Shown piece after piece: positions 5,138-30,577 of a stretch of 64,000 nt of DNA. Positions within the stretch are counted from its first letter, which is position 1, and every line of letters starts with the position of its first letter. Below the pieces are notes generated by a model. The model did no database searches and had not been told where the DNA came from. It was given only the letters and a program-made list of their open reading frames with translations. Source of the stretch: Pedobacter segetis (GTDB lineage: Bacteria; Bacteroidota; Bacteroidia; Sphingobacteriales; Sphingobacteriaceae). Position numbers and translations under genes: made by a program. The stretch covers positions 1-64,000 of the forward strand of contig NZ_JAEHFY010000002.1 of assembly GCF_016623585.1 (NCBI RefSeq). Reading direction: 5' to 3'.

Positions 5138-5685
5138 CATAAAAGAGTAAAGTAACCATAATAGGTGCTGGTATAGCTGGCTTAATGGCGGCAAAAGTTT
5201 TAAATGAAGCGGGTTTTAGAGTTTTAGTTTTGGAAGGTTTTGATCGTATTGGAGGTAGGGCAACCACCACCAACAAAGAGGGTTATTTGCTTGATCGCGG
5301 CTTCTAAGTATTATTGGGCAATTATCCTTTGGCAAAAGAACTGTTAAACTATAAAAGTTTAAACTTAAAAGCCTTTGATCCTGGGGCCAAAATTTTATAT
5401 CAATAAAAATATACCATGTTTTAGATCCCCTAAGAAAACCCTTGAGTTTGTTTAATACAGTATTATCGCCAATAGGTTCTTTTGCCGATAAGTTGTTGAT
5501 GTTTAGGCCTAAGATAAGGCTAAGGTTTAAAACTATAGAACAGGTTTTTGATGAAGATGAGCAAACCACCATCAGCTAATTGTTAAAGCTAGGCTTTGAT
5601 GATAAAATGATCGATCGGTTCTTTATCCCCTTTTTAGGCGGCATTTTTTTAGAGAAAGAGAGAATTAACCACCTCAAGCAGGGTG
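5138..5685 (+). pseudogene. FAD-dependent oxidoreductase (CrtI/amine-oxidase-like) pseudogene, 5' part
   Basis: Frame by frame this stretch reads as the N-terminal half of a phytoene-desaturase-like FAD oxidoreductase. It shows the Rossmann motif IIGAGIAGLMAA near 5156, GGRATTT, DRGF-VLLGNYPLAKELL, SPIGSFADKL and DRFFIPFLGGIFLEKE. It is broken by in-frame TAA codons at 5305-5307, 5404-5406 and 5577-5579, a frameshift near 5420 and another in the GA run at 5651-5664, and it has no good start codon. The last intact words are TTSSRV, ending exactly at base 5685, where the restriction-modification insert begins. The gene resumes at 7942. Confidence 0.85.
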
Positions 5686-5794
5686 TTATGCCCAATGCTA
5701 CTAGCGGTCTTACTAAAACGAACTGACAGACAAAACCCAACGACTTTACCAAAACTATTAGTAAATTTGAAACTGAAATTAGATATAGAAATTT

Positions 5795-6868
5795 ATGGAC
5801 ATACAAAAAGTAGGGCTATTCGGAATTAAGCATTCAAACAGGGATTTTACTCAAGCAGACACTTGGGGCAAAAACCAGTTTAATTCTTCGTTTCCTGCTG
5901 GTTTGACTAACTTTCTTGCTTCAAAAAAATTAGAAAACGTTTATATTTGTCTTGATAAAGACCTCAAAATTGAACATCAAAAAATCTCGGCAGAACAACT
6001 TTACGGAATAGACTCAACTTCTGAAGATTTGTTTTTCTCTTTTGAAAGTCAATACACACCATACCAACAATTGGTTATAGGTACTTTACCGAGAGTGGAT
6101 TTAGTTACTCAATCACGAAATAGTGGACAGGTTTTACGACCTATTGAAGTAAAGCTAACTGCATTGCCCGATAATTCTACTTACAATTTAAGTGAAGAAT
6201 ATTATGGTTGCGAAATAGTAATAAGATCAGACACAATCGTGTATCTGGCTTGTAGTATTGCCTCAAATTTCAAAGACAAACAAAAGCAACTTTCCAAATT
6301 AATCGGGAATAAATTTGACAATATAACAGACTGGGCAGACGGAACAGCGGTTTGGGCGCATATAACTGAAATGATTGTAACTATTGACAAAATCATTCTT
6401 TCGGTCTTAGAAAAACAAGAACCTATTTTATTACAACCAATATGGAAAACAAACGGAAAATCACCAAAACTTTCTGATAATTGTTTGGATGCTTTTGTTT
6501 GGAGTAATATCGCTTTTACTCAGTTTTTTGTTGATGTGGCAAGAGGCGAACTATCATCTAACAATAAAATTACAAGACAAATAAGAACCATTATTTGGTT
6601 ATTCAAAATGCTTTATGATTTTGCCAAAAACGGACAAATAAACCATCATAAAATCATTGACGAACTTTCTTACAATACCAAAAACGATAAAGCATTTGCG
6701 GTAAGCGGACGTGTTACGCACCGCTACATGACTTGTGCAGAACTCACAAAACCAAGAATTGAGAAAAAGGACATCAAGAAAATTATCCTTGGTGGAGGAC
6801 AGAATTTACTTAGTCCCGAAAGACGATTTGATGCTATTATTTTTAACTCACCTGAATTATTTAGCTAA
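5795..6868 (+). CDS. Type II restriction endonuclease, HindVP family
   Basis: A 357-residue protein resembling the HindVP family of type II endonucleases: the N-terminus VGLFGIKHSNRDF, then FESQYTPYQQLVIGTLPRVD and IEVKLTALPDNST. The last two fit a PD-(D/E)xK nuclease core, with candidate metal ligands Asp102, Glu118 and Lys120. Known relatives cut GRCGYC; that specificity here is only inferred from the family. The gene is full length and intact, unlike the pseudogene around it. Its stop overlaps the methyltransferase start by one base (TAATG), so both are translated from one message. No controller protein gene accompanies them. Confidence 0.85.
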   Translation: MDIQKVGLFGIKHSNRDFTQADTWGKNQFNSSFPAGLTNFLASKKLENVYICLDKDLKIEHQKISAEQLYGIDSTSEDLFFSFESQYTPYQQLVIGTLPRVDLVTQSRNSGQVLRPIEVKLTALPDNSTYNLSEEYYGCEIVIRSDTIVYLACSIASNFKDKQKQLSKLIGNKFDNITDWADGTAVWAHITEMIVTIDKIILSVLEKQEPILLQPIWKTNGKSPKLSDNCLDAFVWSNIAFTQFFVDVARGELSSNNKITRQIRTIIWLFKMLYDFAKNGQINHHKIIDELSYNTKNDKAFAVSGRVTHRYMTCAELTKPRIEKKDIKKIILGGGQNLLSPERRFDAIIFNSPELFS

Positions 6869-7812
6869 TGGAAACAGTAGATTTATTTTCGGGTTGTGGT
6901 GGTTTATCACTTGGATTTCAAAATGCAGGATTTAAAATTCTAGCTGCTTTTGACAATTGGGAGCCAGCCGTAAAAGTATATAAAGAAAATTTTGACCATC
7001 CTATTTACGACACAGATTTAGGTTGTAAAGAAGAACTTGAATTTGTAAAAAGCTTTAAACCCCAAATGATAATTGGCGGTCCACCTTGCCAAGATTTTTC
7101 AAGTGCTGGAAAGCGTGACGAAACCTTAGGGAGAGCAGATCTAACTATATCATTTGCAAACATAGTTTCAGAAGCAAAACCAGAATGGTTTGTAATGGAA
7201 AATGTGGAAAGAATTACAAAAAGTAGTATTCTTAAAGAAGCATTACAAATTTTCAAGAAAGCGGGTTATGGTATTTCTTATCAAGTTTTAGATGCTAGCT
7301 TTTGTGGTGTTCCTCAATCAAGAAAACGCTTTTTCTTGATCGGACATAAATATTCGCAAGACAATTTTTTAAATCCATATTTTTCTAAAAAACAAACTAC
7401 AAAACCAACGACTTTGTTTGATTATTTTGGTAATTCGTTAGGTCTTGAATATTATTACAGACATCCGAGAAGCTATGCAAGGCGTGGTATTTTCAGTATT
7501 TATGAACCAAGTCCAACAATACGCGGTGTAAACCGACCTATTCCAAAAGGCTACACAAAACACGAAGGCGACCCAGTAGAAATTACGGAAGATTTAAGAC
7601 CTTTAACAACAAAGGAAAGAAGTCTAATACAGACTTTTCCAGAGGATTTTGTTTTCAATGGAACAAAAACAGACCTTGAACAAATTATTGGTAATGCTGT
7701 ACCTGTGAAATTGGGAGAGTTTGTAGCAAATTGTATTAACGATTACATCATCGACAAACAACAAAACAAACAGATTTCAATCGGACAATTGGAATTAATA
7801 TACGAAAACTAA
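6868..7812 (+). CDS. DNA (cytosine-5)-methyltransferase, partner of the HindVP-like nuclease
   Basis: A 314-residue C5-cytosine methyltransferase with all main motifs in order. Motif I is VDLFSGCGGLSLGF (residues 4-17). Motif IV is GGPPCQDFSSAG with catalytic Cys74. Motif VI is ENVERI (111-116), motif VIII QSRKRFFLIG (150-159), motif IX RPLTTKERSLIQTFP, and motif X IGNAVP near residue 283. The target-recognition region lies between VIII and IX, about residues 165-240. It transfers a methyl group from S-adenosylmethionine to C5 of cytosine and protects host DNA from the linked nuclease. The stop at 7810-7812 is 11 bases before the attC-like site. Confidence 0.95.
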   Translation: METVDLFSGCGGLSLGFQNAGFKILAAFDNWEPAVKVYKENFDHPIYDTDLGCKEELEFVKSFKPQMIIGGPPCQDFSSAGKRDETLGRADLTISFANIVSEAKPEWFVMENVERITKSSILKEALQIFKKAGYGISYQVLDASFCGVPQSRKRFFLIGHKYSQDNFLNPYFSKKQTTKPTTLFDYFGNSLGLEYYYRHPRSYARRGIFSIYEPSPTIRGVNRPIPKGYTKHEGDPVEITEDLRPLTTKERSLIQTFPEDFVFNGTKTDLEQIIGNAVPVKLGEFVANCINDYIIDKQQNKQISIGQLELIYEN

Positions 7813-7823
7813 AACAGAACTGT

Positions 7824-7941
7824 GCATAACAAATTATTGGCGTAATAGCCGTTGAATGGATTCTATTAAGCATTTGTACAAAGCTGAACGGTAGTAATTC
7901 TACTGAACTTTTATACTGAAAATCCGCCAATACCCAAACCG
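7824..7941 (+). other. attC-like recombination site (with 5686-5691)
   Basis: The outer box GCATAAC is at 7824-7830. An inner pair TATTGGCG (7835-7842) and CGCCAATA (7925-7932) is perfectly complementary, and the partner outer box GTTATGC forms from G7941 plus TTATGC at 5686-5691 in the circular form. The middle contains partly complementary CCGTT and AACGG. The total length of about 124 nt falls within the known attC range. The crossover point is G|TT. What is unproven is that an integron integrase can use it. Confidence 0.6.
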
Positions 7942-8616
7942 TTCAATTTTGTGTTTAAGATGTTTGGGGAAGGGGATGCGCTAATCTCGGCAGGGAATGC
8001 AAGAGATACCTAATCAATTAGCTACGGGGCTATTCAGCAACAAAATAATTTACAACAGTTTTGTTACTCAAATGAAAGAAAATAAGGTAATCTGTGAAAA
8101 TGGTAAAGAATATGTTTCAGATCATATTGTTTTCGCAACAGACCAGATGAATTTACCAAAACCATTTGCCCAAACACCAAAAAATTACAGATTTGTTCAT
8201 GATTTTTTTATTATTGATAAACTACCTTTTAAAAAGCCAATGATAACACCGGGATAAATAATATGGCAATTATGGATAATATCTCAAAAAATTATACCTC
8301 TAACCAAAAGCATTTAATCTCTATTTCGGTAATCAAAAATAGGGGTCAGTTGCCACAAGAAAACATGATCGAAAAAATAAAACTTGAAATGGCAGAATGG
8401 TTTGATGTTAGTGATTGGGATTTTTTAGATAGTTTCAAGATCAACTACCTATTGCCCTATCAGTTAAGCGTAAAAAATCCATTGGCAAACTCAGATATAA
8501 TCAAACAAGAAAATAGCTACAATTGCGGTGATTATTTGTGCAATAGATCCACCAACTCGGCAATATATTCTAGAAAACGAGTTTTTGAAATAATTAACAA
8601 CTTTAACAAAAATTAA
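7942..8616 (+). pseudogene. FAD-dependent oxidoreductase pseudogene, 3' part
   Basis: This continues the gene interrupted at 5685. It reads FNFVFKMFGEGDA, shifts frame near 7990-7997, continues MQEIPNQLATGLFSNKI at 7997-8047, meets TAA at 8255-8257, and resumes as NMAIMDNISKNYTS and LPYQLSV to the C-terminal FAD-binding signature CGDYLCNRSTNSAIYSRK, ending at 8616. Together the halves cover a full-length protein of the CrtI/amine-oxidase family. The scattered stops and shifts show long decay. The cassette in the middle is intact, so the two parts of this locus are under different selection. Confidence 0.85.
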
Positions 8617-24276: not shown

Positions 24277-24521
24277 AATATCTAGAAATCCATTTTAGTG
24301 ATAAAATAATTTTAGAATTCGTTAGTCAAGTATCAAGAACTTTAGATAATATTAAACATAGTTCTTTGATTTTTAGAAAGTCCACTTCATTTAAAGACGT
24401 TTATAAATGATTAATCATTAAACAGGTCTCAGTCATCTACAGAATAAAAGAGGAATCTAACACTATCGAGTTAATCGCTTTTATTGATAATAGACAAAAA
24501 CCAATCAAGCAAAATTTTTAA
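24249..24521 (+). pseudogene. Decayed RelE/ParE-type toxin
   Basis: The frame reads SYEIISDRLEYLEIHFSDK, then a typical LDNIKHSSLIFRKS helix, FKDVYK, an in-frame TGA at 24408-24410, and LIIKQVSVIYRIKEESNTIELIAFIDNRQKP, which matches the beta-sheet end of ParE/RelE toxins. About ten residues appear missing between SDR and LEYLE compared with the family. The TGA removes the conserved C-terminal third, so the toxin should be inactive. Its end overlaps the yceH-like stop by four bases. Confidence 0.75.
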
Positions 24522-29245: not shown

Positions 29246-29362
29246 GTCTTTTTTAATTAGTTAATTTAATAATTAGTCAATTTGAAAATGACTTTTAATA
29301 TTATTTATGAACGATTTTTATTCCATTGTCAAATTTTCAAATCGACAAATTGTAAAACCGAA

Positions 29363-30577
29363 TTAATGCTCTGCCCACTCAATTTTATCAAGATCTATGC
29401 CTTCCTTAAACATTTCCCAAAGCGGAGACAATTCTCTTAGATGAAGAACTGCTTTTTTTGTATTTTCTATTGCAAAATCAACTTCTTCCTCGGTGGTAAA
29501 CCTCCCTAAGCCAAAACGGATGGAAGAATGAGCCAAATCATCTGAAAGGCCTAAGCTTTTTAAAACATAAGAGGGTTCTAAAGAAGCAGATGTGCAGGCA
29601 GAACCAGATGAAACCGCCATATCTTTCATTGCCATCATCAAACCTTCGCCCTCAACATATTTAAAAGAAATATTTGCGGTATGAGGTAAACGATGTGCGG
29701 GGTTCCCGTTTACATAAGATTCCTCTAACTCGGTTAAGCTTTTTTCTAATTTATCCCTTAAAGTAGAAAGCCTGACAGCTTCTTCTTCCATTTCATTGTA
29801 ACAAAGCTCACAAGCTTTACCTAAACCAACAATACCAGGAACGTTTAAAGTACCCGAACGCATCCCTCGTTCATGGCCACCACCATCCATTTGAGAAGTT
29901 ACTTTAACCCTAGGGTTTTTTCTTCTCACATATAAAGCCCCAACACCTTTTGGGCCGTACATCTTATGTGCCGATAATGCCAATAGGTCAATACCGTCGG
30001 CTATTACATCAACAGGAATTTTTCCAACAGCTTGAACAGCATCGGTAAAATATAAAGCACCATGTTTATGGGCAATGGCAGCTATTTCTTTAACAGGTTG
30101 TATTACGCCAATTTCATTATTTGCATACATGATAGCAACCAAAATAGTTTGGTCTGTAATGGCCGCTTCTAATTTTCTCAAATCAACCAAGCCATCAGAT
30201 TCAACATCTAGGTATGTAATGTTTGCACCTAATTTTTCTAAATGTTTACAAGCATCTAAAACAGCCTTATGTTCTGTGGTTAAGGTAATGATATGGTTAC
30301 CTTTATCTTTATACATCTCATAAACACCCTTTATCGCTAAATTATCGGATTCTGTTGCGCCAGAAGTAAAAATAATTTCTTTTTCTGAAGCACCTATTAA
30401 TTTAGCCACTTGTTCACGGGCGTAATCTACCCCTTCTTCTGCAACCCAACCAAAAGGATGGTTTCTACTAGCAGCATTCCCAAATTTTTCTGTGAAATAA
30501 GGTAACATTGCTTCTAATACCCTTGGATCCATCGGTGTAGTTGCATTATTATCTAAGTATATTGGTGTTTTTAACAT
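29363..30577 (-). CDS. iscS: Cysteine desulfurase IscS
   Basis: A 404-residue PLP-dependent enzyme. [11 protein letters not shown] binds PLP phosphate, [10 protein letters not shown] holds the PLP Lys, and [13 protein letters not shown] contains the mobile catalytic Cys. It strips sulfur from cysteine for Fe-S clusters and tRNA thiolation. I chose the ATG at 30577 ([15 protein letters not shown]) because it gives the family N-terminus; the frame is open for 19 more codons upstream. A minus-strand TATATTTG at 30607-30614 with TTG at 30632-30634 (17 bases apart) is a plausible promoter for the isc set. Confidence 0.95.

Follow-up and report, generated by a model that had tools for sequence, protein, structure and literature searches.

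A mobile restriction–modification cassette of Pedobacter segetis ends in an attC-like site that probably belongs to an integron-like system without canonical IntI

Main finding

The stretch of Pedobacter segetis DNA analysed here (the window; 64,000 nucleotides) corresponds to positions 1–64000 of contig C22 in a 3.84-Mb genome of 72 contigs. As read from the sequence, positions 7824–7941 are the 3′ end of a restriction–modification cassette inserted in a decayed amine-oxidase gene (Table 1). This segment is very probably the cassette-borne recombination site of a mobile cassette belonging to an integron-like system, in which a tyrosine recombinase encoded on another contig of the genome (C17) would act on the folded strand. 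A preliminary description of the site had proposed a candidate attC. Our results agree with it insofar as the site ends a circularisable cassette that was inserted at G|TT, but they do not support a canonical attC of an IntI integron.

Table 1. Features of the cassette, its recombination site and the interrupted host gene in the window
Feature	Position	Strand	Remarks
Decayed amine-oxidase host gene, left part	5149..5685	+	Start approximate; in-frame stops
Left junction	5685..5691	+	Host G 5685 and cassette start TTATGC 5686-5691 form GTTATGC
Mobile gene cassette	5686..7941	+	2,256 bp, flanked by host bases 5685 and 7942
HindVP-family type II restriction endonuclease	5795..6868	+	357 aa, intact; PF09519 E 8e-150; PADLOC REase_II
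C5 cytosine DNA methyltransferase	6868..7812	+	314 aa, intact; PF00145 E 5e-70; PADLOC MTase_II E 1e-148
attC-like recombination site	7824..7941	+	118 nt when integrated; 124 nt as a circle, including 5686-5691
Outer box R″ GCATAAC	7824..7830	+	From the sequence
Inner box L″ TATTGGCG	7835..7842	+	8-bp pairing, no bulge
Inner box L′ CGCCAATA	7925..7932	+	Pairs with L″
Right junction	7941..7947	+	Cassette G 7941 followed by host TTCAAT 7942-7947; crossover at G|TT
Decayed host gene, right part	7942..8260	+	Similarity to genomes G015, G007 and G003

The cassette and the empty site in relatives

The start of the methyltransferase gene overlapped the stop of the endonuclease gene by 1 base. Homologues of the HindVP protein were found in 24 plasmid records, all with < 60% identity (top-ranked, 38%). 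Across 5149–8260, the amine-oxidase gene was decayed by stops and frameshifts on both sides of the cassette, and both restriction–modification genes were intact.

The left flank (5266–5685) showed 77% identity to loci L143 and L144 and 68% to L145 over 361–411 bases; all three loci carry the gene in intact form. When the right flank was sought in 18 genomes of the genus, seven matched, including that of P. segetis itself. Three of the six others matched over at least 85 bp, with identities of 75% (G015), 73% (G007) and 79% over 85 bp (G003), and the remaining three matched over 24–39 bp only. In G015, G007 and G003, the host gene was intact, with an ORF of 414–416 aa assigned to Pfam PF01593 (Amino_oxidase) at E 3e-39 or better; neither of the two ORFs listed in or just beyond 7942–8260 of the window matched a Pfam family alone. 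Joining the flanks of the window gave AGCAGGGTG|TTCAATTTTG, which aligned without a gap at the join against all three relatives. The letters common to both junctions were GTT, that is, a 3-bp overlap, and a target duplication was absent. The cassette was thus inserted precisely at a non-att genomic G|TT site, as in attG (secondary-site) insertions. A transcription terminator at 7824–7941 had also been considered as a candidate and was rejected because of the empty site in the relatives.

Anatomy of the site and its standing against chance

The geometry given in the preliminary description was recovered throughout. The start box GTTATGC (5685–5691) was the exact complement of the end box GCATAAC (7824–7830), and the inner boxes paired over the 8 bp that had been claimed. 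The loop, described as about 80 nt, measured 82 nt (7843–7924), and the circle form had the expected total of 124 nt. The outer and inner boxes were separated by the reported 4 and 8 nt, namely AAAT on the left and, after L′, CCCAAACC followed by G 7941. The proposed central pairing of CCGTT with AACGG was also seen in the predicted bottom-strand fold. The extrahelical bases that were to be looked for in the folded site were absent. The earlier caution that the likeness to attC did not extend to every detail proved apt, given this lack of an extrahelical base and an array-adjacent recombinase that is not a canonical IntI.

The site geometry alone was not strong evidence against chance. Sixty first-order random windows contained 40 comparable patterns, 10 of which were accompanied by a matching upstream start box (ca. 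0.17 per window). Folding was mildly better than that of shuffled sequences (z −1.7 and −1.9 for the two strands), and the strands folded about equally well. The site stands far above chance because of three lines of evidence independent of the geometry: a covariance model built without it, its 77%–79% identity to array sites and the empty site in three relatives. A search of the P. segetis genome with the cassette DNA returned three further stretches, two of which matched the last 81 bases of the site with 77%–79% identity and the third 41 bases with 83%; all three were cassette ends, located on contigs C34, C17 and C37.

The covariance model (R1) was constructed from ten aligned array sites of the same genome, leaving out the window site. 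RNAalifold predicted 16 pairs in these ten sites, 11 of them with compensatory changes. With filters off, the sole significant match of R1 in the 64-kb window was 7824–7947 (35 bits, E 4.2e-6), and the next match scored 14 bits. The ten training sites scored 105–124 bits, which is high by construction, and untrained sites of the same genome reached up to 121 bits. With a broader family model (R2), the window site scored 26 bits (E 0.0084 over 347 kb searched); the E-values of both models, which were built here, are rough. With only eight inner pairs and low R1 and R2 scores, the window site is a weak member of the family. Rfam contained no family that reached its cut-off at the site. Since the segment forms the end of a cassette with exactly complementary boxes, and since insertion took place at G|TT, with 3 bp of overlap and without duplication, an attC-like mode of working is well supported.

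Elsewhere in the window, tandem copies of a 46-bp repeat were located at 60–245 and 649–697, with a further copy ca. 450 bp on. The only Rfam family at cut-off in the window was Flavo-1 RNA (RF01705; 34177–34267, minus strand, 55 bits).

Cassette arrays behind a tyrosine recombinase

Sites matching R1 were present in all 18 genomes of the genus, with 2 to 74 sites each. In the P. segetis genome, R2 identified 55 sites at E ≤ 0.01 besides the window site, which fell below the cut-off of that list. Many of these were on short contigs resembling broken arrays, and others were scattered singly. On contig C17, an array started directly behind the gene for a 348-residue tyrosine recombinase. A search of named genomes with this recombinase identified at least 539 relatives, from which 80 loci were kept; Flavobacterium, Algoriphagus, Chitinophagaceae, Saprospiraceae and others were among the matches listed. 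Across the 80 listed loci, R1 yielded 135 hits at E ≤ 1. As many as 126 of these lay downstream of the recombinase on the same strand, five downstream on the other strand and four upstream, although the upstream sequence covered (680 kb) was twice the downstream sequence (320 kb). Of the 80 loci, 39 carried one or more co-directional sites downstream, including 23 of the 26 with at least 5 kb of downstream sequence. Twenty contigs ended < 800 bp behind the recombinase, and R2 sites were detected in 8 of the 21 remaining listed loci with at least 800 bp downstream. The same layout, with six downstream sites, was found on a complete Chryseobacterium plasmid, whose recombinase is annotated as ‘site-specific tyrosine recombinase/integron integrase’. 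As in integrons, a tyrosine recombinase gene thus adjoins the array.

If each cassette moves as a circle through its own site, its start box must complement its own end box. Such complementarity in 4/4 variable letters was observed in 78 of 94 consecutive cassettes, a set from which cassette pairs without GTT or AAC were left out. In the controls, the two boxes of one site agreed in only 14 of 129 cases, and shuffling gave a mean of 5.8/94 and a maximum of 14 in 1,000 shuffles. The high rate also indicates that the model overlooked few intervening sites. Of 137 sites, 136 had AAC and 130 had GTT, so the arrays share with integrons the palindromic, AAC/GTT-boxed cassette sites.

These data bear on the possibility that 7824–7941 is a terminator or repeat element behind the restriction–modification operon that was moved by another route. 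In favour of such an element, the hairpin follows closely on the last gene and its fold z-scores are modest. However, the borders of the window cassette coincide exactly with the boxes, the join is at G|TT without duplication, and complementary boxes border most array cassettes (78/94); this explanation, already contradicted by the empty-site alignment, is very improbable.

Among 12 scattered sites of the P. segetis genome, a matching upstream start box was identified for six (with three candidates for one of these), and the right box started with G(A/T)T in seven. When the flanks of five single scattered cassettes were joined, the longest open frames spanning the joins measured only 35–97 aa, and most of these cassettes consequently appear to be intergenic. 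At C9:29387, C14:41141 and C55:47622, single sites had a right box that was no longer G(A/T)T; these are perhaps decayed cassettes.

Several loci showed individual peculiarities. Rfam searches of four array loci detected group II introns and tRNAs only. On the Chryseobacterium plasmid (L151), group II intron matches at 24293–24464 and 29354–29525 (minus strand) were each ca. 110 bp before an attC-like site, a pair recalling the link between group IIC introns and integrons that is reported in the accessible text of PMC7923331. At L005 4392–4523, the left arm resembled one site type and the right arm another, which could reflect loop recombination or an assembly chimera. A long run of sites followed a recombinase gene broken by several stops in genome G392 (C2:150830–182552). 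One of the 80 listed loci, L113, is labelled Azoarcus, a proteobacterium, and carried no R1 or R2 site; wrong binning or transfer might account for it.

An attI-like site behind the recombinase gene

The insertion site was analysed in 41 loci with a first site, comprising the 39 listed loci above, the P. segetis genome and the plasmid. The start of the first cassette was located between the recombinase and the first site in 39 of the 41. Measured downstream from where the recombinase match ends, the distance to this start was 95–109 bp in 26 of these 39 loci and < 400 bp in 33. The latter 33 loci shared the core TATAWAYNA directly before the GTT crossover, with A at −8 in all 33 and A at −1 in 32; GTT itself was set by the method. 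A 6-bp helix upstream of the core covaried over 26 loci. In 12 of these 26, a 6-mer recurred three or four times upstream of the core; three copies appeared in 3.4% of letter shuffles. In 10 of the 12, the copies were near some of the positions −72, −60, −28 and −17, mostly in alternating orientation. The 6-mers before the crossover were species-specific (e.g., L082 11042–11153) and are perhaps protein-binding sites. Judging by these sequence features, a putative attI-type primary insertion site is present beside the recombinase, as in integrons.

An alternative is that the array recombinase is a passenger and that XerC/XerD, which resolve dimers in the host, or another recombinase moves the cassettes, as for Xer-exploiting elements. 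Some genomes do carry sites without a close relative of the recombinase, and the accessible part of PMC4792948 notes that XerCD, which have no I2-like domains, act on a phage stem that has no extrahelical bases. This alternative is nevertheless unlikely in view of the one-sided association of the arrays with the recombinase, the near-fixed distance of the attI-like core and the near-fixed register of the repeated 6-mers at that site. The array-adjacent recombinase encoded on C17 remains the preferred candidate.

Relationship of the recombinase to IntI and Xer

The C17 recombinase (348 aa) scored 200.7 bits against the integron-integrase model TIGR02249 (cut-off, 265) and 217 bits against the NCBIfam XerA-type model (cut-off, 220). 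Its match to VchIntIA (2a3v) was split into two stretches around residues 178–243. Over IntI1 197–243, 41 alignment columns were present in at least six of nine IntI and in at most three of 20 array recombinases; the array recombinases thus lack the IntI-specific additional domain (I2). A phylogeny of 31 proteins, with the two Xer proteins of the P. segetis genome for comparison, placed the nine IntI (100/99) in one group and the 20 array recombinases (97/91) in another. This separation is qualified by long Xer branches that the program flagged and by a data set without archaeal XerA. Residues R205, K230, H295, R298, H321 and Y330, which we take to be the catalytic residues, were invariant in 23 recombinases. 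Matches in phage records numbered 1,057, all with < 60% identity (top-ranked, 37%).

The predicted structure of the recombinase (pLDDT 82.7, pTM 0.52) matched archaeal XerA 5hxy best (Z 22.8, rmsd 9.5, 253 aligned). The next matches were tied within 1 Z: 4a8e (Z 19.5, rmsd 12.1, 239 aligned), XerH 5jk0 (19.4, 13.2, 256) and VchIntIA 2a3v (19.2, 14.2, 256). Unlike archaeal XerA and Xer, the array recombinases adjoin cassette arrays, and most aligned members carry an extra N-terminal domain of ca. 65 residues. This domain was predicted as beta-beta-alpha-beta-beta-alpha in L007 9302–9493 and relatives; in some array-associated members (e.g., L119, L137 and L141), the recombinase match starts only after it. 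Predicted alone (pLDDT 79), the domain had no convincing relative in Foldseek (best E 0.57, a HARP domain), in VIA-align (Z ≤ 4.4) or among the sequences of solved structures (nothing better than E 0.31). In Pfam, HARP was matched by 1 of 19 members (E 0.08) and DUF5710 by 9 of 19 (E 0.009 or worse). A HARP-like role is a weak lead.

Comparison with canonical attC sites

Once folded, the attC sites of integrons carry two to three extrahelical bases, according to the accessible part of PMC11641012. In a simple arm alignment, no bulge was found in 85 of 108 family sites, 6 of the 114 sites having been left out for missing boxes or short length; such extrahelical bases are therefore missing from these 85 sites as from the window site. 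Extra left-arm bases were present in all ten IntI-associated sites, eight of which came from three loci of other classes and two of which were the class 1 sites. Among family sites closing an unbroken cassette, 49 of 59 were likewise without a bulge, which argues against a bias of the model.

Pairing of the arms was assessed in the 114 family sites using an alignment fitted to the structure. In this alignment, 92.7% of pair cells were paired, and 553 double changes were counted, compared with 155 in shuffled and 79–109 in slid controls. This covariation supports a folded state of the family sites. The two spacers differed by 4 nt in 89 of 109 family sites, and C preceded GTT in 113 of 114. The 4-nt asymmetry was considered as a unique family trait and rejected, since all eight IntI-associated sites of other classes had offsets of 2/5 or 2/6; the offsets of both class 1 attC sites were 5/5. 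The attC sites of dfrA17 and aadA5 (class 1) yielded no R2 match at E ≤ 1. Near IntI in other classes, R2 produced weak matches in three of eight loci (eight hits; best, 38 bits). Canonical sites chained by script were sought in the eight loci of other classes, and none were found.

Distribution

In one sample of the GTDB class of P. segetis, 204 of 295 genomes, from 119 of 156 genera, contained R2 sites at E ≤ 1e-5, and a canonical IntI over the cut-off was detected in one of the 295. In a sample of the phylum, R2 sites occurred in 181 of 395 genomes, close recombinases (E ≤ 1e-80) in 99 and a canonical IntI over the cut-off in 105, one of which belonged to the class of P. segetis. These counts were based on at most 8 or at most 11 site candidates scored per genome, and the class and genus labels of part of the sampled genomes were inferred. 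Because R2 weakly matches IntI-associated sites, some of the hits from other classes of the phylum may be sites of that kind. No canonical IntI over the cut-off was found in the 18 genomes of the genus, which were scored piecewise; 2 of the 18 had sites and no recombinase at E 1e-60. That sites are commoner than close recombinases suggests that the sites are also mobile or orphaned, or that other recombinases act on them.

The window cassette might alternatively be an ordinary integron cassette that a canonical IntI had captured elsewhere and that simply came to rest at this place. Its boxes, G|TT crossover and secondary-site insertion are the layout of an integron cassette, and other classes in the phylum sample often carry a canonical IntI. 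Against this origin, canonical IntI was missing from all 18 genomes of the genus and nearly so from the class (1/295), the recombinase of P. segetis itself scored well below the IntI cut-off (200.7 vs. 265 bits), and the window site shares sequence with the arrays of its own genome and lacks an extrahelical base. We consider such an origin quite unlikely and favour movement by the integron-like system described above.

Proposed mechanism

In the proposed mechanism, a tyrosine recombinase acting on the folded strand of the site would cut the cassette from an array as a circle. The outer boxes (NNNNAAC/GTTNNNN) and the inner boxes would form two short helices with an asymmetric unpaired spacer between them, and the exchange of one strand would take place beside the conserved G|TT. 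Re-insertion of the circle would normally occur at the attI-like site (core TATAWAYNAG|TT), ca. 100 bp behind the recombinase gene. The window cassette would instead have entered a chance G|TT site in another gene, similar to the attG insertions of integrons. The acting enzyme would be the array-adjacent recombinase on C17, a member of a clade related to Xer and IntI that lacks the IntI-specific insertion, and the spacer asymmetry may choose the strand. Excision and insertion through a folded strand are suggested by the compensated pairing of the arms and the matched boxes of each cassette, which a double-stranded exchange would not need.

The accessible text of PMC4792948 describes how the I2 domain of the integrase accommodates the extrahelical bases, which are key to strand choice and help to block the second exchange. 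It presents the domain and the bases as a good example of co-evolution and as probably the first step toward integrons. The absence of I2 from the array recombinases and of extrahelical bases from most sites fits a lock and key that are absent together.

Relation to known systems and implications

The arrays resemble canonical integrons in having a recombinase beside an insertion site, a one-directional array of short gene cassettes, AAC…GTT outer boxes, a G|TT crossover and complementary start and end boxes in each cassette. In contrast to canonical integrons, the IntI-specific insertion is missing from the array recombinase, whose score does not reach the IntI cut-off, and the sites mostly lack extrahelical bases. 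The orientation also differs: the array recombinase is co-directional with its array and the attI-like site lies behind its stop codon, whereas in L223, L224 and L226, three loci of other classes, the R2 hits and IntI were on opposite strands. The insertion of integron cassettes at genomic attG sites (Loot et al. 2024, as cited in the accessible text of PMC12901181) is similar in that a single cassette occupies a non-att genomic site, but the window case occurs in a genome with no detected canonical IntI.

An integron-like subgroup of simple tyrosine recombinases, in which the integron insertion is not fully conserved, has been defined (Smyshlyaev et al. 2021; accessible text of PMC8138268), and the array recombinases may fall in it. 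That study differs from ours in that the term ‘attC’ is absent from its main text and no Bacteroidetes cassette arrays are described in the accessible portion. IntegronFinder recognises integrons by an IntI profile, including the extra domain that separates IntI from other integrases, together with attC sites. The 2022 survey of complete genomes with it found one complete integron within Bacteroidetes proper, in Salinibacter ruber; earlier complete integrons came from Chlorobi and Ignavibacteriae, and Bacteroidetes had yielded only integrase-only elements before IntegronFinder 2.0 (all from the accessible text of PMC9024848). A 2008 article reported intI genes from the Bacteroidetes/Chlorobi group (PMC2426708), and Bacteroidota are named among the phyla with integrons (PMC9668308; PMC8618304), in the accessible sections of these articles. 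Full-text searches of open-access journal articles on integrons, attC and cassettes in Bacteroidota showed no prior description of these arrays in the accessible passages. Our results accordingly point to a widespread gene-capture system that is apparently undescribed.

Because the system appears to work like an integron and yet differs from integrons in two of the defining features compared, it can be regarded as a candidate integron variant. Tentatively, and with real room for other outcomes, we propose a second integron lineage in most sampled genomes of the class, with folded single-stranded sites, without I2 and mostly without extrahelical bases. This lineage may preserve a pre-integron state, with the strand chosen by the asymmetric spacer, as the clade of these recombinases lies beside IntI instead of being nested in it. 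If this is true, a gene-capture platform in about two-thirds of the sampled class genomes (204/295) would have been overlooked. It would have its own cassette pool, including defence genes such as the restriction–modification pair of the window. Such a system would also make it testable whether the I2 domain and extrahelical bases are needed to recombine folded cassette sites.
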